Part shown: positions 1,795-22,057 of the stretch, one piece after another | Layout of the letters: every line of letters starts with the position of its first letter | Position numbering within the stretch: position 1 is the first letter of the stretch | From: Entophlyctis helioformis | Lineage: Eukaryota; Chytridiomycota; Chytridiomycetes; Chytridiales; Chytriomycetaceae | DNA: 22,057 nt | Assembly: GCA_025526915.1 (NCBI GenBank) | Contig: JAHLKH010000307.1 | Span: 1 to 22,057, forward strand | Reading direction: 5' to 3' | Notes under the pieces: generated by a model | What the model saw: the letters and a program-made list of their open reading frames with translations, nothing else | Database searches by the model: none | Told to the model about the DNA's origin: nothing | Made by a program: the position numbers and the translations under genes

Positions 1795-4700
1795 CTAGCT
1801 TTTGCTGTCCTTGCTCTTGCCACCAAACAGCTTCCGCTTGCCAGACTTGCTGCCCAGCTTGGGCGATGTGGAGCCATCACCAGCGTCCACGCCATTGGTC
1901 TCGACAACTGCCGTCATGCTGTTGGTGCTGCCTGTCGTGCCAGCAAGACTGCTGTTGGACAGAATGTCGCCCGATCCGGTCGAGGATGATGATGCCACAC
2001 CAGCGCTGCCATTGACGGCAGCAGTAGCCGCAGCTGCGGCTGCAGACGACGACGAGGCGCTGCTGCCGCGGCTCAGAAACGGGAACCCTCCAAACTTGTC
2101 GCTGCCCTTGCGCTTGGCAGGCGTATCGCCCGAGGCTCCTGCCGGTCCTGTCGCGGCGCTCTTGGACGTCTTTCGGCCATCCTTGCTGCTGCTGCCCTGC
2201 CCCATCATGGCACCAGCAGCCGCAGACACGGCAGACGATCCCGACGCAAGAATGCCGGCCGACGACTTGCTGGGCTCAGTGACCTGGATGATCTTCATCA
2301 TGCTCGAGATCGAGTCCTCCTTGCGCTTGATGAACGCCTCGTCCACCAGCCGGTCAAAGTAGATGGTCATCTCGTCCTCGGAGAAGCCCATGCGGCGGGC
2401 AACGTCCATGGGGGTCTCGGACGTGTTCGATGTCTTTGCATTGCGGTCGGCGCCCTTCTTGAGCAGGTACTGCACCACGTCCTTGCGGCAAAAGGACACG
2501 GCCTCGTGGAGCGCCGTCCAGTCGTTCTGTCCCCGAGCATTGACGTCGACCTTGGAGAGCACCATGGCGATGATCTGGTCGAGCTTGCCTGCGCGCGCAG
2601 CCAAATGGAGCGCCGTGGAGCCTGAGCTGTCGCGCTGCATCATGTTGGCGCCGCATTTGATGAGATACAGCGTCACCTCGACATCATGCTGGACGAGGAA
2701 CATAAAGTGGCAGGCAGCAAGAGCGCGCGGATCTGTCCTGGGCAGCAGATACTTGACGACCTCCTTGTGGCCAGAGAGGGCAGCCAGCTCGAGCGGAAGC
2801 AGTGCCTTTTCAGCAATAAACTCTGGCGAGAATCGCACAGGCTGCTTATCGCCGTACTGCTTGAAGCCGCTGCTAAAGTCGCTTGCGTTCACAGGCTCGA
2901 CACGCATCACCGAATTGCGCTGTTGTCGTGTTGTGGACGCGACGGGGTCTGCAGAAAAGTGTCGTCCGCCGTGCGTCTTGAGGCTGCGGAGCAAAAAGTA
3001 GTACGACAGGGGCAGGGGCACACTTGGATTTGCGCCGTTCTCAAACAACAGTTGGACCGTCTGGAGATTACCCTTGCATGCCGCGAGTACGAGCGGCGTG
3101 ATGCGGTACCAGCTGGCGTTGAGGTTTGGCCGCAGCTTGAGCATGGCCTTTATCAGGTTGTCAAGGCCAAAGGCGACAGCGAGGATAAAGTACGACGGAA
3201 AGATAAACTTGGTGGGGTCCAGAGTGGAGGCGCCAAAGATGGGTGCATTGATGTTGAACGGGAAGCCCTTGTCCATGAGAAGCAGGCAGACGGGCTCCAG
3301 CCGGTTTGCGAGGGCATACAGGAAGACTTTGTTGGACTCGTGCATACGCTTCTTCTTGAGCGAGTTTGGCGAGAGCTCGTTGATGAGGGCACACGAGTAG
3401 CCGACCCGCCGATCGTGGATGGCAAGCATCAGGCAGTGCATCATGCCAGCGCGAGTCTTTTTCTTCTTCTTGGGCCGGAGCAGCGCATTGAGTTTGCTGA
3501 GCGCCGCTGATCGCTTGCTGACCTTTTCTTTCCTCTCGGCCGCTGAAGCAACATCCAGATGCAGACGGATACATCCAGGGTGTGCACAGTTGGTTTCCGC
3601 AACGAGCAGGCACATGGAAGAGTCAGCCCATATGAACGAATGCAGGCGAATGCACACTCAAGGCTTGCAGGCTAGGCGACTGCACCTTTCTTGTTCTTGT
3701 CTGGGTCAAAGGACATTTCGTCTGCCGCAATGACGCCGAGATTGGTACCCTCGCTCTGCTTGACGTGCAGCGCGTACAGGATATGCCGCTCGCGCTTGGG
3801 ATGGATGTCCGTTCTTCGAAAGTACGCAAACGACACGGCGTCGCTGAGCGGCAGGCCGACTCTGGACTCGAGCAGCGAGCTGGTGTCGGCGTTTGCGTTG
3901 GCGGGACTGGAGCCGGGAGACGTTCCCGGGATGTAGCCACCTTGTGCGGCTGAGGAGCCATTGTCGGCGCGGTACGAGTCTGTGCGGGCGTGCATGGCGC
4001 CGCCACCGCCACTAGCCACCAGCAGGCTGCTGCGCGTGCCGCCGATGCTGGGGCTGGGGCTGATGGACGGGCTGGCAATGCTGCTGCTGCCCAGGCTGCT
4101 CGAGCTGGTGCTCGCGCTGATTCCGGACGAGGCCGAGCCGGATGGGGTGAGCATGATCGTAGGTGCTCCGCTGCCGTTGCTGTTGCTGTTGCTGCTCATG
4201 ATAGGCTTGACACCCGTGACGGCGGCAGTCGGGCTTGGAAGGGAAGCAGACGAGAGCGACGGCAGGCTTTTGGTCTCGGGCACGGAGTGGAGGGCAGCGC
4301 CTGCGGGATGATTGAGGGCGGCGCTGGAGGAAGCGGGGCTAGCGGCCGAGGCAGATGCAGAGGCGGCGGTCGCGGCAGCGGTGGACGAGCCTGGACGCTG
4401 GCCGACGGTGTTGCTGCGGTTTCTGCTGACGCTGCGGGCAAGCGGCGCGGCACCAGGGCTGGCGAGGTGCTCTGCGGACGACGACGACGACGAGGAGGAC
4501 GAGGGCGAGGAAGACGGCGGGGCCAACGAGGCGTGGAGCAGCGGCGCCGAGACGGGCGATAGCAGGGCAGGCGGGAGGTTGCCGCGGCTGGACGAGTGCT
4601 GAGGCGGCGTGAGGGCGGCCGAGGCAGCGGCAACGATAGCGGCGACGGCTGCGTTGTTGTGGACGGAAGAAAGCGGCGCGGATGCGGCGGATGCGCCAGA

Positions 4701-11300: not shown

Positions 11301-14300
11301 ATGGACGACCTGCAGTCGCGCATCGCCAAAGTCAAGGCGAAGCTCGAGGACTGGAAGGCCCGCTTCGAGCTCAAGTACGGCTGCAAGCCCAAGGAGAGCG
11401 ACATCCGCAACAACGAGGCAGTCGGTGCGCTTCTGGTGCTGTCGCTGTGCATCTGCCTGCATGTCCGCATCTGTCGGCATGTCTGTACTGGTCCTGCATG
11501 GTTGCTGATCCGGCCATGGCCTGCATGTGTATGTGTATGTGTGTATGTGTGTGTGTGCACAGCAAAGGCATACAGCAAGTACAAGGAGCTCAAGCAGCGC
11601 ATCAAAGAGTCTGCGCTGCAACAGCCGGCCCTCGGTGCCCATCCCGCCCAGCACCATCGGACACGGCCACCGCCTCATGCTCCGACGCCAATACTACCAA
11701 CGACAACAACGAACTCGACCGCCACAGACCGCCAACAGCACCGATCAGAGACCAGCAGGCCGCCCGTCGAGTTCATCCGCTCGCCATTCGCCTCACGCAT
11801 CAGCGTGCTGTCATCGCCTGCCAAGCAGCCGCTCCTATACCCCATGCCACCAGCGCATGCAGCGGCAGCCTTGACATCGCCGTCGCCTCGACGCTCGGCC
11901 GTTCAGCGCGACGATGCAATCTTCAAGACGCCGACGTCAGGCAGACGTGCCGCAGCAAGCCGCAATGGCACGGGCGGCATGGAGCAGTCGCCCTTCAAGT
12001 CGCCGCTTGGGTCACGCACTAGATCTGGCAGCCAGCGTCGTCTTGCGTTTCCTGGATCGGGATCGCTCGTTGCAGGATCGGCGCCAAAGTCACAGTCGCC
12101 CGCACCATGCATTCGCTGTCGGCCGCAGAGTCGGCTGAGACGGACACCGAGTGCGAGTGGATCGGCCCAACGCCAAAGAAAGTCGGCCGGTTCCAACTCG
12201 ACCTTGGATCAACGGCCGATGAGCGTGAGGATGAACGTGGAGGCGATGACGGCAAGCGCGACAGAGACATCGGCCCGCTCCACCAGCCGTTCTTGGCGCG
12301 ACTCAAGCTTGCCCAAAAAGCAGCATCTTCTTTGGATGAAAGCAGCAAGCCTGTGTCTTCTGTGGCACCATCGTCGGCCAACCGTGCGCCGTCTGCCATG
12401 TCTGCTGATGCGACAAAGGCAAAGACGCGTGGACCACAGTCTATGAACAGACGCACAAACATTCTCAGCACGATCCCCGCCTTTTCCGCAACCACCCTCG
12501 TGTTCTCAGCATGGCAGCCAATGCAGCCATTGCTTCGGCGACTTCTTCTCAGCCAACTCCAGTCGCAACAACAACTGCCACGACTACCGAGTCTCCAGTC
12601 CCAGACGACGGCGTGTTTGGCGCGGTGCTCAACAAGCCTCATACAGATCGTGGCCGTCGCGTGAGCGATGTATATATTGACGATACAAATGACGCCGATC
12701 CCGCTGACACAAACGCAAAGGAGCTTGGCGCATCGGCCTCGCCTGACGATCCCAAGAACGACAAGTACAAGATTCGCAACCTGGTCGACAAGGAAGGTTC
12801 TGGTGTCCTCCTTCAGAAACGCGCCGTTCTCAAATCTCTCGACGGCGATTCCAACGTCTTATGCACGGCCTCAAGCATCAACTCGCATCTGCCGCTTTCC
12901 AAACAGCTGCCATCCTTTGCGTCATGGAACCGGTTCGCCGAGCCGCCTGCTGCCGCCCAGAGCCCCATCCATGGAGCAGTGGTGCGGCCACATGTCAATG
13001 TCATGTCTCGTACCCTCCGACGCGAGAGCTCCAAGACTCTGATCCTGCCGACCAACTACACGGATTTTCTGAGCGAGCACGAGCAGCGGGTGTTTGCAGA
13101 CGTTATCCGTGATATTGACGAGCGCAAAAAGCTGGAATGCGGGTCGGATGCGGTGCTGCCTGCCACGCAGCCGCCTGCAGACAGCCAACGTTGGCACGAT
13201 GAGCTTGGATGCAGTCGCTTCAGCGCAAGAGCAGCCATGCGACACGGCCGACTCCATGGATACTGGCATGCTGAATGCGACGACGGATGCTGCCATTGAT
13301 GCAATCGCCGTTCAGGTCGGCACTGTTGCCAGTGGCATGCCAGCGAAGCATACGAAACCAAAACGCGCAACGCCAGCATCGCGATCTACGGCAACTCGCT
13401 CGCGGCCACAACCAGCCGCAACAGCAGTCTCGCAGGCGGAAGTCGCACCAGCAACCGAGTCGGATGTCGATGATGATGTCAATGATGACGATGCACCAGC
13501 CGTACCAAAACCGACCGTGGCGCGAGCCAGAGCCACACATCGTCATATCAAGGCCATGTCCGACTCTGATCAAAGCGACGCATACATGTCTGACAGCCAG
13601 GAGCAGAGCGACCGTGATCATGACCACCACGATGCCCAAGATGCACCAACCGATGAGAGTGCCGAGAAGGGCAACCAGCCAGAAGCTGATGCACTGCACG
13701 ACGTGCCGACTGCTAAGAAACGCAAAGCTCCATCAACAGCAGCAACAGCTCGAAAGGCACCCACCAAGAAGACAAAGGCGACGCAGCCACTTCTGGCTCG
13801 CCTAGACTGGCCAGCAGCAATTTCCACGCCTACAAGATCAAGAGCAAACCGGGAGGAGGAGGCACTGGCAGCAAGAGTTCAAAGCCTGCCAGCTCTTCAT
13901 CTCGGTTTGGCCGTCGGTCGACGCGCGGCGAGCAAGACACGGTCTCCCGTGGCCGCAACGCCTTTGGCGAGCTTGAACAGATCGAGTCTGTCCCCAAAGG
14001 CGGTGACGCCATCCTCGGCGTTTCGGACATTGCGAGCCCATCTCTTGATACTGCGGCCGAGTTTGTGTTTGCCGACGCGGCGGCAGCATCCGACACGTGT
14101 GTTTGTGTAGCGGACCCTGCGACCGGCAATGCGGTGTTTGTTGATTTGGAGGCCGCCATGAAGCGGCTGACGGGCATTGAGGCGTTCCGGCCAGGACAGC
14201 GCGAGGCCGTTGAACGCACGGTGCTGGGCAAAAGTACCATGCTAGTGTTACCGACTGGTGGTGGCAAGTCGCTGTGCTACCAGGTACCCGCATACGTGTT

Positions 14301-16931
14301 CCGATACCTTCCGTCTGGTGTGTCAGGCATCATGCTGGTTGTGTCGCCCACGATCTCTCTCATGCATGACCAGATGCGATGCCTGCCGTCTGGCCTGCGT
14401 GCGGCGTGTCTGTCCAGTGCACACCAATCTGTGCGTATCATGCTTGCACCCATCATTGTGATTTGGTATAGCCGACTGACATGTACATGTGACAGGCAAC
14501 GCTTGCGCGCAAGATCTATGCCAGTCTAGAGGCCAGACAAATAGACGTGCTGTTTGTTGCACCCGAGCGTCTGCAATCCGCATCGTTCATCGAGCTTGTT
14601 CGCGTGGGCAAGATCCCGCCTATCCGCGTAGCATGCATCGATGAGGCGCACTGCATGTCTGAATGGTCTCACAACTTCCGGTATGCTCGCCAACTGTCCT
14701 AATCGGCTCGCGGACTGCCGTTCAAATCTGACACTGCTGCGTGGCATGTATAGGACGTCGTATCTGCACTTGCCCCGCATACTGAGGAACGCAATGGGCG
14801 TCAAGTGCTTTCTTGCACTCACCGGCACTGCAACGACGCGCACAGCGACATCCATTTGCGATATGCTCGGTATTGATGCGGCCGAGGGGCTGATCACAGG
14901 ATCTGTACTGCGCGAGAACCTGCACATGTCTGTGTCGCGTGTTGTTGCCGATGAGAACAGGTAAGAGAGATAGAGAGAGGAGTGCACGCGACGGGCCACA
15001 CGTGCTCGCATACTCACACGCTGTGGTTGACAGGGAGGCTGCCCTGGTTGACCTGCTTCGCACACCAGCATATCGCGATCTGGATTCCATCATTGTGTAC
15101 ACCATGTTCCAGGTAGGGCTTTGGCTGTCCTTGAATATCAACCATGCATGGGCAGATACTGATCTGACAACGCCATGACCAATCAGGCACAAGCCGACCA
15201 TCTTGCACAGTACCTGCGAGTACGAGACATGGACGCCGACAGCTACCACGCCGGAAAACCACCGGAACAGCGCGACTACGTGCAGTCTCGCTTCCTTCTG
15301 GGCAAGCTGCGCATCATTGTTGCCACGGTCGCTTTCGGTCTCGGCATCAACAAGGCCAACGTGCGGTCCGTCATCCATTATGCCATGCCCAAGTCGCTCG
15401 AAGACTATACGCAAGAGATGGGCCGATCTGGACGCGACGGCGGCATAGCTCTGTGCCACTTGTTCCTGTCGCAGGCCGACTACGTGCGCCAGCGCAGTTT
15501 TGTGTTCTCTGACGGGATCGATGAGGGCGGTGTGTGGCGGCTTCTGCGGGCCGTGTTTGCTGGCGAGGTTGTGGGAAACGCAAACGGCAAACGCAAGGGA
15601 TCAACGAGTCGTGCTGGGAAGAGCGGAGATGCAGGCGATCGCACCAAGCGCGTTGTGATGCCGGTCGATGAGCTGGAAGTCGAGCTCGATGCCAAGGAGA
15701 CTGTGATTGCAACTCTGTTGAGCTACATTGAGCTCAGCAGTGCCAGCATGCCGCCCATCAAGACGATGCCGAGTAAGAGTCGCCGTGCTGTTGGCTGGCT
15801 TGTGCAGTCTGGCTGAGCTGACAAGCGTACCTATGCATAGCATTGAATGCGACACACACCATCTATGGCAGCCGACCCAAGCTGGATGCGCTTGCAGAGA
15901 CATCCGATCTGGTGCGAGCCATCCTGACACTCGGCAGCTCAGTCCGCTACGGCTTCGAGTTTGACACTCTGACCGTAAGCCATCCTTGCCTCACAGCCTC
16001 ATCATGGCGAGCACACAGCTCACCAGCACGCTCACGCCAGGTTGCCCAATCCATCGGCATGGAGCCGCAAGATCTCGTATCCCAGCTCTGGCGTCTCCAA
16101 TCCGACAAGCAGCTCAAGTTTTCTGGCACCAACCGGGCTTTCCACATTCTGGTGCACCAAGACTGGACCACTCCCAACGACCGCCAAGCGTGGCTCGAGT
16201 CCATGCGAGACATGCTGACGGCCAAAATGTCAACCCTTGAGACCGCCTCGGTGCGCAAGCTCGACTCGTTTTACGCGACGCTGTACTCGGTGGCATCGGA
16301 CTCGCTGCTTGATGGTGTTGAGGAGGCGCAGGCGGACGGCGTGTCTCCAACACAGCGCGTGCTGATGGACAAGATAGCCGAGTACTTTACCATTGGCGAC
16401 GAGGGAAGCGGCACAGCGTCGATTGACTCCAAATGGGGATTCCGTGATCCCGAGCTTGTTGAGAAGCAGCGACTTGCGTGAGTGTTGCTTGCGTGGGTTG
16501 CCTGGTGTTGTTGGACGGCAGGAACTGATGCATACATGCAGCAAGATGAATGTCGAGATCTCCATCAAGGCGTTTGTCAAGGAAAACATTGGCCATGTCA
16601 TGTCAGGTTGGTGCCACGCGTGACTGGCTTGCTGTTGCGTCCATCCTCCAACCTCCTGACCGTTTCCAACACAGGACGTGCTGTTGCGCGCATCTTCCAC
16701 GGACTGTCCAGCCCAAAGTTCCCAGCACGCGACTGGTGAGCCATTCTGCATCGCGTCTGTCGACATGGGGCACTCGGCTGACATTCATGTGCGCTGCATA
16801 GGTCAAAGTCCAAGTATTGGAACATGTACCCGCACTTTAACTTCAAGGACCTCTCGCGGCTGGCCGACAAGGCGATCCTCGACTACAAGGCGAAACACGG
16901 CGCGAGATCGCAGTCTGCCCCGTCGCGCTAA
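11301..16931 (+). CDS. RECQL4: RecQ-like DNA helicase 4 with Sld2-type N-terminus
   Basis: N-terminal exons 11301-11424 and 11563 onward encode the Sld2/RecQ4 initiation domain ([20 protein letters not shown], then [14 protein letters not shown]). At about residue 220 comes an Sld2-like [16 protein letters not shown] motif. A long Ser/Ala/acidic linker follows. The helicase core opens near 14160 ([10 protein letters not shown]). It has Walker [13 protein letters not shown] (14248-14283), DEAH at 14640-14651 in [45 protein letters not shown] and motif [13 protein letters not shown] (15412-15444). The C-terminus carries the RecQ4-specific [20 protein letters not shown]. Firm exons: end at 14430, then 14496-14680, 14754-14960, 15034-15112, 15187-15772, 15841-15974, 16041-16477, 16542-16606, 16675-16735, 16802-16931. 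The family unwinds DNA 3' to 5' and helps start replication. Splicing between 12011 and 13840 is unsettled. Confidence 0.93.
11425..11562 (+). other. First intron of the RecQ4 gene, frame-neutral, with a TG microsatellite
   Basis: Donor GTGCGC at 11425, acceptor GTGCACAG at 11562. The intron is 138 nt (46 codons) with no stop in the host frame, so its retention would insert a Cys/Val-rich segment without breaking the protein. Removal fuses NNEAVA to [12 protein letters not shown], which restores the compact Sld2-type domain; this is the main evidence that it is spliced. Confidence 0.8.
11525..11558. repeat. TG-rich microsatellite in RecQ4 intron 1
   Basis: An interrupted (TG)n/(ATGTGTG)n run directly before the intron's 3' splice site. 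It stands in for the pyrimidine tract. Confidence 0.85.
12011..13840 (+). other. RecQ4 linker region with unresolved exon structure
   Basis: The coding frame moves at least four times here. Splice pairs that fit the phase are 12011-12075 (GTCACG...GTTGCAG), 12500-12552 (GTGTTC...TTCTCAG), 13153-13234 (GTGCTG...GAGCAG) and about 13659-13717 (GTGCCG...CTAAG). None has a strong donor, unlike the GTAAG/GTATG donors elsewhere in the gene. The encoded segments are low-complexity but plausible: an acidic [12 protein letters not shown] stretch, basic KKRKAP nuclear-localisation-like motifs and a Gly/Ser-rich segment before the helicase ([15 protein letters not shown]). Sequencing errors or real frame breaks cannot be excluded. 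Confidence 0.5.
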
Positions 16932-17120
16932 CCAAACCACCACGCTATTTCAACTTGCAACCCCTGATAAATGCGGCCCGATATTCATACAATTACCAAG
17001 CGTTTTGGAATTAAATTCGACCCGAGAGGCGACGGATGCAAGCCCACATATCACACGATGCAAGGTTCGAGTCAGCAACGAGCATGCAAGACAGGCGGGC
17101 GAGGCACATCCAACAAGGTC
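16932..17120. other. Gap between the convergent RecQ4 and Fanzor-like genes
   Basis: The two genes end tail to tail, 280 bp apart from stop to stop. This part has no open frame of note. It is richer in A/T than the flanks, with CTGATAAATG at about 16964-16973 as a weak polyadenylation-signal candidate for RecQ4. A GGTTCGAGTC at 17064-17073 looks like a tRNA T loop, but no cloverleaf forms around it. Confidence 0.5.
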
Positions 17121-17211
17121 TCACCTTCTATTGAAGTGACCCGTTAGGTCGATCGGGAGGTTCCCCGATTCAAATAGTTGGTAGACGTAGAAGTCAGTGC
17201 CCAAAGGCTTG
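17115..17211 (-). ncRNA. Candidate guide (omega) RNA or right end of the Fanzor-like element
   Basis: The first 97 bp past the stop codon contain two small stem-loops. At 17152-17169 ATCGGG pairs with CCCGAT around a 6-nt loop. At 17121-17139 TCAC.TTC pairs with GAAGTGA around a TATT loop with one bulged base. In TnpB and Fanzor loci the guide RNA starts near the end of the coding region and runs through a structured 3' end, with the guide read from DNA just outside the element. Position and structure fit; nothing here proves expression or the element boundary. A 3' UTR hairpin is the plain alternative. Confidence 0.3.
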
Positions 17212-20200
17212 TCATGCGAGACAACACATGGCTGGCAACCAGGCTTGGGCACGACTTGCATGCCGCTGGATGGATCGATGCATTGCCTTGATGTCTGCAA
17301 GGTGCTCTGGCATGGCTGGATCGTCACTGGCTGGCGTGTGCGTCAAATAGAGCGGCCGTTGTCCAAAGAGCAGATGCCACAGTGCGACCATCCCGATGTT
17401 GGTGGCTCCAAGCACGTCTCGGTGGTAGACAGTCTCGCATGGTATGCACTCGTAGTGTCGCAGGTTGGTGCGGTTCTTGTCTGGGATCCGCTGCTTGCAC
17501 TGTGGGCACATCTGGCTGGTCAGGTTCTCGTTGCAGCGGTAGATCTGTGTGTGTGTGTGTGTGTGTGTGTGGTCAGTTGGTGCACAGATGGATGGATGGA
17601 CAGCGTGGCATCAGACGCACATAAGCATATCCAGACGACCGCAGATGCCTGATGAGAAACTTCTCAAACACAGCGTGCCGGCCACCCTCGCCAGTAAAGT
17701 CGATGCCCAATGCCCAGACAACTGGGATGTTGTCCTCTGTCGACTTTGTTCGGTCGACAGGGAGGCCTTGAGACGCACGAGATGCGCGCTTGCCAGTGGT
17801 CGATCCTGCCAGCTTCATGATGCCCTCAAGAGTGTTTCCGCGAATAGACGTGCTGTTGCTGCGCATGGTGAACCGCTTGGCCTTGACCTTCTGTGGAATG
17901 CCATGCCATGCCATGCCGTCCAGTGCAATCAGCAGGAATCAAGCAGCATGGCAGCCATGTCAATGGGCATCCAGAAACAGAGAAAACGTACCCGTGCATT
18001 CAGGAATGGCGAGCAGTACGCATGGCAGCGCAGATCCCAAAAGGCTCTCTCGCCTGCTGTGGCGTTTGGATCGGCATGCTTTGCTGTCTTGAATGCAATG
18101 GCCGCCTGGATGTCGGTTGCCTTGGCATATCGATTGTTGACCTGGCACAAGAGGCAGGCACTGTGAGTTGATCTGGTCAAGAGTGCGCGTGGCAGAGTCA
18201 TTGCATGCATACCAGTCCTGAAAGATGCGCTCAGCATGTGCCATGCCAGAGGAGAGCACGTAGTTGGACTCGAGCTTATACGAAAAGTCCCTAAGGTCAA
18301 CCAACATGCTGGACGCGCCATACATGTACCGCTGGCCCCAATCAATGCCAACAATACGAACAAACCGGTAGCCCTTGTTGGTGAACAGCTTGTTGGCTTT
18401 GAGGATGTTGCGCAGTCGCTGCGAGGCGTAAAAGTTGCGCTGGGCCTGTCATGCCATGGCATGAGTGAGGAATGTGCAATGCAAGTGCACCAAAGTGCGA
18501 GGTTGGCATGCAAGTGGCTTACAGGATTGGGTGCTTTTGGCTTGGTGGCTGTGGATGGCATGTCAGTCGGTGCTGGTGCCAAGTGTGCATCATAATGGCA
18601 CAGCAACTCACATGTGCCATCCATGTGATCATGCCCATCATGCCCATCATCATCATCAACCCACGGCTGCTGGCCTGAAGACACCAGATTGGAGCATGCA
18701 GAGCAAGGCGGCAGTCAGAATCCATGTGTGCACCATCGCATTCAAGCACGCCACATACAGCAAGGTGACTCTGGACGGTCTGTGCGGCCATTGAGAGCCA
18801 GTTGAAAGATGCTGTATCCATCCGTCCTGACGCTGCCTGTCAGGATTGCCTTGGTCCGTTTTGCTGGACGCACAGCATCAATCGCAGCCTTGATATGCTC
18901 CTCGCGCTCCTTGCCAACCAGACCCTGCTCGTCAGCCTCTTGCGTCACCTTGGCTGTGGCCTTGGCAACCGCGTCCATCTCATCTTTGGCTTGTGCAGGT
19001 GTCTGGAAGCGACCTTTCTCAGGGCGGAGGCCGGGAAGCAGGACGTCGAGAACACAGAGCTCTTGACTTGCGCTGAATGCCAGCTCAATATCCTTGTTGA
19101 ATGACGTGAGGCCCAAGGTGGCTTTTTGGTAGTCTTGGACAAAAGTGCAGTGTCAGCATCAAATCATACAAGCATGGCATAAACAAGTGCGACCTACTGA
19201 GTGCATCCAGAAGCTCCAGTCGCAATGTCTGCAAAGCATTACTCTGCTTGCCATTCTTGCGCTCATCTGTGGTCCCCATTACTGCCCAAAAGAGGGTGGC
19301 CTCGGTAATGAGGATGAACGGGTCGCGGCTCGCCGCCTCAGGGCACAACTTGATTGTTGTGCCAACAGCAAGCTTGCGCAGCTCGTAAAAGATCCTGATC
19401 TCTGAGAGTGACGCATTGCTCAAGATCGGCACAAGCACATGCAATGCTTGCGGGATTGTATCAAGACCGCCGTTGTCTGTGGCTGGCAGCATGCTGGGTG
19501 TTGCGGCCGCGGTGGTGGCCTTGTCCTTCCTGCACCGTTGCCTCTTGGGTTTGGCACTGTTGGTGGCTGATGAAGAGGTGGACCGGTCATGCTTGAGACC
19601 CGAGGCAGGAGGGGCAGCGTCTTGAGCAGCGTGTAGTGAGGCGTCCTCAGTGGCCGGTGGTGTGGTTGATGCTGGCCCTTTGCGCCTTTGTTTCTTGCAC
19701 GTCGGTGGGCTTGGTGTGGCGACCTCGGCAGCAGTGCGTTTGGCATCCTTGGCGGTGGCATGCTTGGCATCCTCAGCAGTCTTCTTAATGATCCCGATCC
19801 ACCTGTCAACATCCTTGGCAGACGCACCCTGCACCAGGCTGTGAGCTGCATCAACCAACAGCTTGGACTGGTTGGTCATAAAATGGGTGGCTAGCATGCG
19901 GCCGACGTCGCGTGCAAGGTTGTTGTAGATGTCGTGCCTTGCTTTTGCACAAAGGCTGCTATCAAGCCTGTAGGGCAGGACAGCCTCCATAGTGTCCGTG
20001 TGCGCAGCATCTGCCGTCGGTGCACTCTTCTGCATCAAGGCAGACAGCTTTGCATTCGCCTGCTCCACAGTTGACTTGAACTTATTGGCCTTGGTTGTCG
20101 CTGTCTGCTGCACGCGTGCTGTCCGTGAGATTGACTTCCGTGTGCCTGCTTTCCACGTCGCTGCTTGCCGTGTGGTTTTCTGTGCTGCGGATGCCTGCTG

Positions 20201-22036
20201 TGTCGCGTCCACCTGCCCCTCCTTCCGTCTCCATGTCCGATGTATGATCAGCTGCATCACGGTGACGATCCAGCAGTGGACAGGGTACTTGATCGCATGC
20301 GGCTGGACCATCTTATCATCCGCCATGATGTATCCAATGTGATATAGCAGCATCTCCAAAGCACCCTCGCCACCAGATGTGCTGCTGGTGAGCGCTGTGA
20401 GCAGCTCATTTGCAGTTGGGACTGCTGGCGGCTGGGCGGCTGGCAATGATGCGCCGGCGCTGCTGGCTGCTGTTGCTGCTGTTGCTGCCACAGTCTGCGA
20501 TGCATTTGCAAAGGTGCAGATCTCAAGCACCGTGCCATGCTCGAGAGGCACCAAACTGCCATAGCGAGGTATCTCCGTGTTGCTGCTATGTGGTCCTGTG
20601 CCATACATCAGCCATGCATTGATGCGCTTTTGGAGGATGCACCTGCCCGTTGTCTGCATCGTGCCCTTGCCCTCGCCGAGGTCGTCTGGGTTGATGTAGT
20701 AGTATGTTTTCACACTGCCACTAGTGACTTGCATCACGCAGTAGTCAAGTGGCAGTGGTGCGTCTGGGCTGAGCTTGACAAGAACCTCGACTATCGCGCC
20801 GATCAACGTGAGGACAGCACACAAGAGGCCGGCTGTGTAATCGTACACCGTCAGGAGGGCGTCCTTTCTGACTGAAATGGCCGTCTGCTTGGCCAGTGGT
20901 GTCTTGGTATGGGTCCCGAAATACTTTGTATACTCTGGCTTGTTTGACAGCATCTTCTGCTCATTTCACGAGTGCACCAGTCAGCCTCACAACACCAAGC
21001 ATCCAGAGCAACATGGCAACCAAACCCCATACCGCCAGATCCACAATCATAACACGGCTGTTATGCTGTGCCTCATCCTCATCCTCATCCTCATCCTTGC
21101 CCTTGCTCTTGCCTTTGCCATTGCTCTTCCTTGCTCTGCTCTTGCCTTGCTCTTGCTCTTGCTGTTGATCTTGTCCTCATCCTTGTACTTTGGTGCTTTG
21201 CGATGATGCTGCACGTTTTTCCGACTGTCTGGTGTTTTGACTTTGAGGACCCCATTGACTGTCTGGACTGGCCCTGATGTCACGCAGCAATTGCCCACAA
21301 CATCCAGATGTGTCGCCCGTCTATCATGATATTCGTGTCTACCAGCAGAATCCATGTCAGCAAGCACAATCAGGGCTTGCAGCATGCCATCTGCCACTTA
21401 CGTGCTTGTCGTTGTTGGAGATGGGGCCTTCCGGTGGCGTCGCCCTGACTTCTTCTTGTTTTTCTTGATGGTATTCTCGGTCGCAGCCTTCTCAGCTCGC
21501 TCGGCATTCTCCTTTGCATGTGCAGCCTCTGTCTCCTCAGAGAATTGGAATGGCGCCTGCCATGGTTGGATGCAGCATCAGGCATCCCTTCCTTGTGCAT
21601 GCAACACAGTCACAATCACCAATGGTGCCCTGTAACCTACCGTCGTATTAGTGTCATCAAGTACACCAACGAGAAGTTTCTTGCGGTTTGCTTGTTCAGG
21701 GCGATCGTTGTCAGATGACTTGGGCAGCGGTGGAGGAGGACCAGCCTGTGGAGTAGAATGGTCAGCAATCGTGCCAAATCAGTACAGGCACACACTGTCA
21801 GTGGAAGATGAGACGCACCGGCGGCTTGCTCAATGGACTTTCTGCAGCAGGGCAATGGCCGTTTGACGCTGATTGACGAGTGTGATTGGAATTGCCCTTG
21901 CTGATAAGTCGATTCTTGAGGCCATTCAACTCATTCAGCAGGTTTTGTGGCCTCATCATGGATAACTGCAAACGTGTCTGCCGGCGCCACTCTGTGCTGA
22001 TCCGTCCGCGGTACTCGGTCTTCTTCTTGCCTGTAT
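17212..22036 (-). CDS. Giant Fanzor-like protein with C-terminal TnpB-type RuvC nuclease (5' end outside window)
   Basis: Twelve visible exons: 22036-21819, 21745-21641, 21556-21402, 21338-21056, 20956-19198, 19133-18759, 18674-18612, 18548-18523, 18445-18213, 18160-17992, 17890-17621, 17544-17212. They join in frame to 1,328 residues; a TTGCAG acceptor before 22036 shows more exons lie upstream. The C-terminal third is TnpB/Fanzor-like: SVRTDGYSIFQL, then RuvC-I IVGIDWGQRYMYGA (Asp at 18343-18341), VVWALGIDFTGEGG, then NENLTSQMCPQC (Glu at 17529-17527), the second zinc-ribbon pair ECIPC, and RuvC-III HRDVLGATNIG (Asp at 17418-17416). All three acidic residues and four cysteines are present. 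The N-terminal part of roughly 1,000 residues has Lys/Arg clusters (KKNKKKSGRRHRK, KPKRQRCRKDK), an Ala/Thr-rich helical region and no family I know. Introns match neighbouring genes. Exons 7-8 and the low-complexity end of exon 4 are least certain. Confidence 0.82.
17546..17571. repeat. (TG)13 microsatellite at the last intron of the Fanzor-like gene
   Basis: Uninterrupted TG run on the plus strand, read as CA repeats just before the acceptor of the last intron (17620-17545). It directly precedes the exon holding the catalytic Glu and the zinc ribbon. Confidence 0.95.
17895..17916. repeat. Short tandem (GCCAT)n in an intron of the Fanzor-like gene
   Basis: About four copies of a 5-bp unit, GCCAT on the plus strand, inside the 101-nt intron 17991-17891, immediately before its ATTCCACAG acceptor. 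Confidence 0.8.
21064..21180. repeat. Purine-rich low-complexity tract in exon 4 of the Fanzor-like gene
   Basis: On the minus strand this is a run of AAGAGC and GATGAG units with no GT dinucleotide. Two frames give different low-complexity proteins: Lys/Ser then alternating Arg-Met, or Lys/Gly then alternating Asp-Glu. The Arg-Met frame joins the next exon without an indel using a GTGTTATG donor at 21055. The Asp-Glu frame would use GTATGGGG at 21032 and needs an extra intron or a frame change. Confidence 0.8.
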
Positions 22037-22057
22037 CTGCAATAGCACATTCAACAA

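Follow-up and report, generated by a model that had tools for sequence, protein, structure and literature searches.

A Fanzor-like nuclease gene within a multicopy DNA transposon of the chytrid Entophlyctis helioformis, with a candidate XPG/FEN-like N-terminal domain

The 22,057-bp stretch studied here, referred to as the window, is the complete contig C307 (JAHLKH010000307.1) of Entophlyctis helioformis (Chytridiomycota), whose genome assembly comprises 29,569,594 bases in 482 contigs. On its reverse strand it carries the 3' part of a transposon containing a large multi-exon gene for a Fanzor-like nuclease. A first-pass annotation had drawn this gene from 17212 to 22057; its C-terminal reading frame does end at 17212 on that strand, but exons 1 to 7 and the left end of the element lie beyond the contig end at 22057, and the right end of the element lies at 16975. 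Gene models were built from conservation and then with a custom spliced protein-to-DNA aligner, using as query the protein of an intact copy elsewhere in the genome, L011. This copy has 19 exons and encodes 1,866 residues with no stop and no frame shift, although its start codon is inexact, public model P0005 starting 22 residues farther upstream in its own copy. The window aligns to L011 residues 539-1866, exactly 1,328 positions. As a side observation on splicing, the donor of exon 4, which lies outside the window, is GC in L011, L022, L024 and L025, whereas L020 has GT at that position, a naturally occurring change of donor type.

Within the window, spliced alignment places exon 8 at 21819-22040, exon 9 at 21641-21745 and exon 10, which is lysine-rich and resembles a nuclear-localisation signal, at 21402-21556, all, like the exons that follow, on the reverse strand. 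Exon 11 (21033-21338), whose junctions were tested across copies, encodes a basic and acidic linker and is shifted in this copy. It is followed by the conserved exon 12 (19198-20956), of 586 codons and without a domain match, which makes up most of the extension that the first-pass annotation had noted. Exon 13 (18759-19133) carries a WED-like TDG motif (GSVRTDGYSIFQL), with its donor as given by an earlier alignment pass and by public model P0002; the final pass put it at 18750. Spliced alignment then gives exon 14 (18612-18674), an acidic linker, and exon 15 (18523-18548), a micro-exon. Exon 16 (18213-18445), whose splice sites match P0002, holds the RuvC-I motif GIDWG with its aspartate at 18341-18343. 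Exon 17 (17992-18141; spliced alignment and P0002) begins 1 nt out of frame (18140), exon 18 lies at 17621-17890 (spliced alignment), and exon 19 (17212-17544), the last and the one matched by PF07282, contains the RuvC-II glutamate (17527-17529), the zinc ribbon, the RuvC-III aspartate (17416-17418) and the stop.

The public model P0002 (BC831DRAFT_170000, 306 residues) covers part of this copy and agrees with the window at every one of its 302 aligned residues. Four of its five introns here have both ends as in the final model, and the donor of the fifth is 9 nt off, in agreement with the earlier pass. To align the window copy with L011, seven frame shifts had to be allowed. Exon 8 has five single-nucleotide shifts (21822-21995) and exon 11 has one, taken as +2, near 21157; the seventh, again of a single nucleotide, falls where exon 17 begins (18140), and there P0002 likewise leaves the frame. 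The exon 8 shifts lie by the contig end and may be assembly errors; the window copy itself is probably non-functional. The earlier proposal of one chain of at least 1,328 residues is thus borne out in its length, as 1,328 aligned positions with long coding sequence joined upstream, but not as an open frame in this copy.

The C-terminal part matches PF07282 (Cas12f1-like TNB) in the window at E 1.9e-9, scoring 38 bits where the curated cut-off is 26.3, which upholds the first-pass view of a TnpB/Fanzor-type C-terminus on an unusually large protein. The same family matches all four spliced cores (best E 2.2e-11; 42.6 bits for the first member), as does NCBIfam guided_TnpB (four of four, best 8e-7), the latter below its curated cut-off. 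Exon 19 contains the pattern ExxxxxxCxxCx16CxxCx6D, with the glutamate at L011 position 1762 and the first cysteine at 1769, so that a glutamate lies six residues before the first CxxC, as in the rearranged-glutamate arrangement of Fanzors. Across the 19 copies examined, the D-E-D triad and the four cysteines are kept in 17 of the 18 that reach the region. L009 is cut by a contig end, and L023 is without the RuvC end in the stretch read (C14:148500-158499), where its XPG and exon 12 parts are kept. A TDG motif, described for the Fanzor1 WED domain in the available text of PMC10711439, is present in 11 of 12 copies (L011 residues 1479-1481) and reads TTG in L023. Because of this motif, part of the in-window extension is probably an ordinary WED/REC region. 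The first-pass figure of roughly 1,000 additional residues therefore holds as long upstream coding sequence and fails as a measure: in L011 the RuvC-I aspartate comes after some 1,570 residues, part of which would belong to the nuclease.

Two features weigh against a straightforward assignment to Fanzors, for which the available text of PMC10711439 gives a fingerprint of RuvC-I DPG and an alternative glutamate, with a search pattern of 120-160 residues from D to E. In the present family RuvC-I reads DWG rather than DPG in 10 of 12 copies (the window, L010, L011, L019, L020, L022, L024, L025, L026 and L027; L028 has DWV and L023 has lost the region), and the RuvC-I aspartate and RuvC-II glutamate are 188 residues apart in L011. 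A core profile found no match among solved structures at E 1. Because of the DWG motif and the 188-residue spacing, we call the C-terminal nuclease, on its motifs, a Fanzor-like TnpB-family protein and not an ordinary Fanzor.

Upstream of this nuclease, exon 12 gave no credible Pfam match and no match among PDB sequences, and its structure model (mean predicted local distance difference test, pLDDT, 38.8) is too poor to interpret, also as regards the beta-rich segment suggested in the first-pass annotation. Its coding region is nevertheless not a product of chance, because at least 143 matching pieces occur in its own genome (the best 70 of 383 candidates having been scored). Farther upstream, outside the window and known solely from other copies, residues 1 to about 330 resemble the XPG/FEN superfamily. 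The N-terminus begins with MG(V/I) in four of the copies read (L022, L023, L024 and L027), and the motif order MG(V/I), VD, HVDG, E(A/S)DxCIA, xDSDxxxHC, NDY and then GxGxxAAVKF parallels that of the host's EXO1. In order and spacing, seven acidic positions (61, 111, 197, 199, 220, 222 and 280 in L011 numbering), which we take to be equivalent to human FEN1 residues, also match the host's EXO1; they are invariant in a five-sequence alignment, and 14 of 17 copies retain the full set. One of them is changed in L010 and one in L023, the region is missing from L014, and neither L015 nor the window extends that far. In line with these motifs, XPG_I_2 (PF12813) ranks first among families for L011 (E 0.0039 and 0.0042) and for five further sequences (E 1.9e-4, 0.0047, 0.014, 0.0057 and 0.026), at overlapping profile positions, and within a five-member alignment (A1) it matches three members, at best 2.1e-4.

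Several results count against this assignment. All listed PF12813 scores fall below the Pfam curated cut-off (21.5 bits at best, against 24.2), and two of the five A1 members gave no PF12813 match at E 1. A profile of the XPG part returned no XPG or FEN protein among solved structures, only three weak unrelated matches. With hhalign, two host XPG proteins matched the XPG alignment no more closely than shuffled columns or unrelated alignments did, a comparison without power; a third piece, FEN1-like, was set aside because stops interrupted its translation. The AlphaFold model of P0005 (five rows) had a pLDDT of 41.2, and its fold search, from a model too poor to interpret, gave no match. Sub-threshold Pfam scores and profile and fold searches without XPG would also be expected if the gene is single but its N-terminus is a novel domain whose acidic motifs came to resemble XPG by convergence. 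We consider this rather unlikely, given a motif order that follows host EXO1, seven acidic positions without variation in five aligned sequences, and one top family found at overlapping positions in L011 and five other sequences. By motif, then, we class the N-terminus as XPG/FEN-like.

Whether the XPG-like and Fanzor-like parts belong to one chain rests on comparison between copies, because none of the nine public gene models found, which split the gene into pieces of 242-520 residues, crosses the linker between them. With an intron counted as shared when its position differed by no more than 12 residues and its phase agreed, 17 of the 18 introns of L011 are shared by L019-L022 and L024, 16 by L025 and L027, and 14 by L026 and L028, these nine copies having 50-65% protein identity; L023, at 42% identity and without the RuvC end, shares 11. 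Introns as in the model were also found in public models other than P0002, namely five of six in P0005, six of six in P0001 and, aligned to a related copy, two of two in P0003. Furthermore, among 49 XPG-like loci listed, at least 32 are followed on the same strand by a TNB match no more than 20 kb away, at a distance of 5.2-7.3 kb in 26 of these 32, as against one locus with the TNB match on the opposite strand and three with it upstream.

The weakest junction lies at residue 697, in the low-complexity linker, where the aligner often failed. The linker region was read in 10 copies, and 14 of the 19 copies were tested by script: the exon 10-11-12 junctions are open, in phase 2 and then 0, in 10 of the 14, and fail in the window, L020, L021 and L026. 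Two further points tell against an intact single chain, namely that use of the L011 protein as query favours agreement in intron positions and that spliced alignment to L011 gave at least one frame shift in 17 of 19 copies; some of the linker shifts are perhaps aligner artefacts, L022 and L024 being free of shifts with an earlier probe. An arrangement of two neighbouring genes, an XPG-like one spanning exons 1 to about 10 and a large Fanzor-like one starting at a conserved methionine inside exon 12, would accommodate the poor conservation of the linker, the least conserved part, the four failed junction tests and the lack of a public model across it, as well as the methionine that follows the exon 12 acceptor in 9 of 10 copies and is also present in L027. 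Yet the donor following exon 8 is present in all 10 copies inspected, whereas the nearby read-through stop is not conserved; most copies tested have an open exon 11, entered in phase 2 and left in phase 0; and exon 12 has an acceptor before it in those copies that were read. Together these make two genes a quite unlikely reading. One gene, not two, is supported by these alignments, because diverged copies share splice sites, phases and open frames.

The gene lies within a transposon with two recognisable ends. Comparison of 20 stretches, each of at most 10 kb, revealed a sharp right end common to the copies, at window position 16975. The right inverted repeat, TTGGTAATTGTATGAATATCGGGCC, matches exactly at C307:16975-16999 on the reverse strand, with its outer base at 16975. 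The left end, GGCCCGGTTCTCATACCATTACC, is seen in other copies and forms with TTGGTAATTGTATGAATATCGGGCC imperfect inverted repeats of about 23 bp. Separately, the left ends of L017, L009, L013, L026 and L027 contain tandem units of about 27 bp with GATTGG, in numbers that vary by copy. Allowing at most two mismatches, we found 74 left and 118 right ends genome-wide, some of which may be assembly duplicates, and none with a reversed control; matches to PF07282 in the genome number at least 150 (the best 150 of 205 candidates scored). From the two lists of ends, 30 sets were paired by hand, spanning by coordinates 7.2-9.8 kb in 23 cases, 1.0-2.2 kb in three and 11.6-15.9 kb in four. At least seven of the eight flanking bases agree, as expected of 8-bp target duplications, in 18 of the 30 sets; shuffled pairings reached this in 0.9 sets on average and in 6 at most. 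Three further sets (C193, C219 and C5 at 128 kb) have a shifted or longer duplication, and the remaining nine have no clear one. In three pairs among these sets (C35/C436, C18/C272 and C67/C297) the flanks are identical or near-identical between contigs; each pair may be one insertion assembled twice, or may represent haplotypes or duplications. By its duplications of fixed length and its inverted ends, the element fits a cut-and-paste DNA transposon.

Two of the three short copies were read, those in C35 (L092) and C199 (L093), and both have undergone internal deletion with the two ends kept, the C199 copy being flanked by a perfect 8-bp target duplication. A 13.9-kb copy in C12 was considered as an autonomous version and rejected: the 7.6 kb examined contain an insertion of about 2.1 kb in intron 3, in which no transposase-like frame was seen as judged by eye, no family scan having been made.

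These observations also bear on the suggestion in the first-pass annotation that the extension might be a host-gene fusion. A host gene that had captured a Fanzor could well be large, intron-rich and furnished with basic clusters, as this one is, but here transposon ends enclose the whole gene, copies of it recur throughout the genome, and internally deleted copies with target duplications exist. Because the gene is multicopy between transposon ends, the extension is part of the element and not a host-gene fusion, and capture by a host gene can hardly be credited.

We then considered selection along the protein. When L011 is compared with nine copies from other subfamilies, the ratio of non-synonymous to synonymous substitution rates (dN/dS) is 0.21-0.38 for the XPG part, 0.28-0.36 for the middle part and 0.32-0.41 for exon 12, all three of which are thus under purifying selection. 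The RuvC part speaks less clearly and in part against a maintained nuclease: its ratio is 0.52-0.72 between subfamilies, comparison with the close copies L012, L013 and L015 gives 0.59-0.82, and residues 1376-1540 give 1.09 with L012, besides 0.66 with L013 and 0.42 with L015. Constraint there is weaker or uncertain, and the ratio is rough because dS is low, at 0.13-0.23 in the RuvC part compared with 0.49-2.25 in the XPG part and exon 12 (L019-L022 and L024-L028 against L011). It seems that the 3' part was homogenised across subfamilies as the remainder diverged. Loss or re-use of both nuclease activities, which would leave the protein as a DNA-binding or transposition factor, might be read from this rough ratio together with DWG in place of DPG, the many frame-shifted copies and an element for which no transposase was recognised. 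Retention of the D-E-D triad and four cysteines in 17 of 18 copies and of the seven XPG residues in 14 of 17 would be unexpected if activity had been lost, and we regard dead nucleases as unlikely.

The stretch of about 240 nt between the stop and the right end is strongly conserved in the 14 copies aligned, between subfamilies as well, and its 3' untranslated portion (17000-17211, reverse strand) is a candidate site for a guide-RNA scaffold. A hairpin at alignment columns 78-95 is kept in all 14, with one compensatory change. Speaking against a structured RNA, the folding energies of three right-end pieces do not go beyond those of shuffles (z -0.34, 0.72 and -1.64). No clear motif resembling a target-adjacent motif was apparent by eye in base counts beside the 18 good target duplications. 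Because the conservation belongs to a homogenised block, with a single compensatory change and unremarkable folding, a guide RNA at the right end is proposed here by analogy with the family. As for a transposase, no credible domain was found in the parts scanned, which were three 5' open reading frames, the middle region, exon 12, the XPG part and the core; in the search for the hAT-dimer family, the controls gave no match. Since none was recognised there, mobilisation in trans is the simplest reading, and a transposase probably acts on the element from elsewhere.

Onto the observed element, gene structure and motif order we can place a tentative mechanism. The protein would combine, from its N-terminus, the XPG/FEN-type domain (residues 1 to about 330), the middle part, a charged linker and the TnpB/Fanzor-type nuclease with its WED/REC, RuvC and zinc-ribbon regions. 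The C-terminal nuclease might be guided by an RNA transcribed from the conserved right end and continuing into the flanking DNA, and could cut the vacated donor site so that repair from a remaining copy would restore the element, and the XPG-like domain might trim 5' flaps or strand ends made at the cut or during excision. Taken as a whole, an element with terminal inverted repeats, one two-nuclease protein of about 1,866 residues, a guided cut at the donor site, flap trimming and a transposase acting in trans is the best explanation we can offer, and we hold it with slightly more confidence than doubt. As the parts scanned yielded no recognisable transposase, the fused protein could conceivably mobilise the element itself, its RuvC and 5'-flap nucleases excising and re-integrating it without a DDE, tyrosine, serine or HUH transposase. 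We think this improbable; if true, it would constitute a new class of transposition machinery.

Comparison with known systems places the element closest to several families at once. Like the Fanzor1 proteins SpuFz1, GtFz1 and PpFz1, the protein is eukaryotic and transposon-borne, with a TNB zinc ribbon, a D-E-D triad, a glutamate six residues before the first CxxC and TDG, and a variable N-terminal half is likewise described for Fanzor1 in the available text of PMC3627910. It differs in its DWG motif, 188 residues from D to E, 1,866 residues, 19 exons and XPG-like N-terminal domain, where the available text of the sources gives Fanzor1 sizes of mostly 600-700 residues (PMC11423790) and up to about 800 (PMC10711439). 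The Mucor element MCi-2 (Bao and Jurka 2013, PMC3627910) similarly has near-identical 3' Fanzor parts with differing 5' parts, its transposon class being uncertain, but the available text gives it target duplications of 11-12 bp and no recognisable terminal inverted repeats, in contrast to the 8-bp duplications and imperfect repeats of about 23 bp found here, where the divergence moreover lies inside one reading frame. With the XPG/FEN superfamily (XPG_I_2; EXO1 and FEN1) the N-terminal part shares the order and spacing of acidic motifs and, in four copies, the MG(V/I) start, and departs from it in its sub-threshold profile score and in its fusion to a TnpB-like nuclease. TnpB proteins of the rearranged-glutamate clade are compact prokaryotic proteins of about 400 residues in insertion sequence elements, whereas the present gene is eukaryotic and has many exons. 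The RuvC-I/RuvC-II combination is nonetheless that of the clade with a rearranged glutamate and D-hydrophobic-G, W being counted as hydrophobic in the available text of PMC10711439.

At the level of titles and the openings of abstracts, with many subscription papers outside the coverage, we found no description of a fusion between a Fanzor and a FEN1- or XPG-like domain. Searches of the protein database (the best approximately 8,000 candidates in each) returned four proteins for the core and five for the XPG part, all nine from E. helioformis, and no homologue of the exon 12 reading frame; viral contigs searched with the core and the XPG part, and prokaryote contigs searched with the core, gave no match. 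These searches rely on short exact words and patterns, and the protein database is the only one of the collections that can contain fungal sequences.

Two other genes were noted in the window. A RecQ-like helicase gene lies on the forward strand at 13717-16481, with DEAD (2.2e-9) and Helicase_C (3.9e-16) matches on two frames and its RecQ name given by eye; its apparent end frame (15822-16481) terminates some 490 bp short of the transposon's right end at 16975. On the reverse strand, 1795-3657 is an open frame of 620 residues that by eye resembles ankyrin repeats with a serine-rich tail.

If the fusion is real and active, it would be, to our knowledge, the largest Fanzor-like protein and the first with a second nuclease domain, and it would provide a natural two-nuclease scaffold with conserved active sites. 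Similar fusions may hide in other genomes, because public models cut this gene into short pieces. The combination of a DWG RuvC-I motif with a rearranged glutamate would, in addition, bear on the origin of eukaryotic TnpB-like proteins. Finally, the biological function of Fanzors is described as little known in the available text of PMC10711439, and the fusion offers a direct test of how they aid transposon persistence; if real and active, it would suggest that, in at least one lineage, the RNA-guided nucleases of transposons process the DNA ends that they themselves generate.

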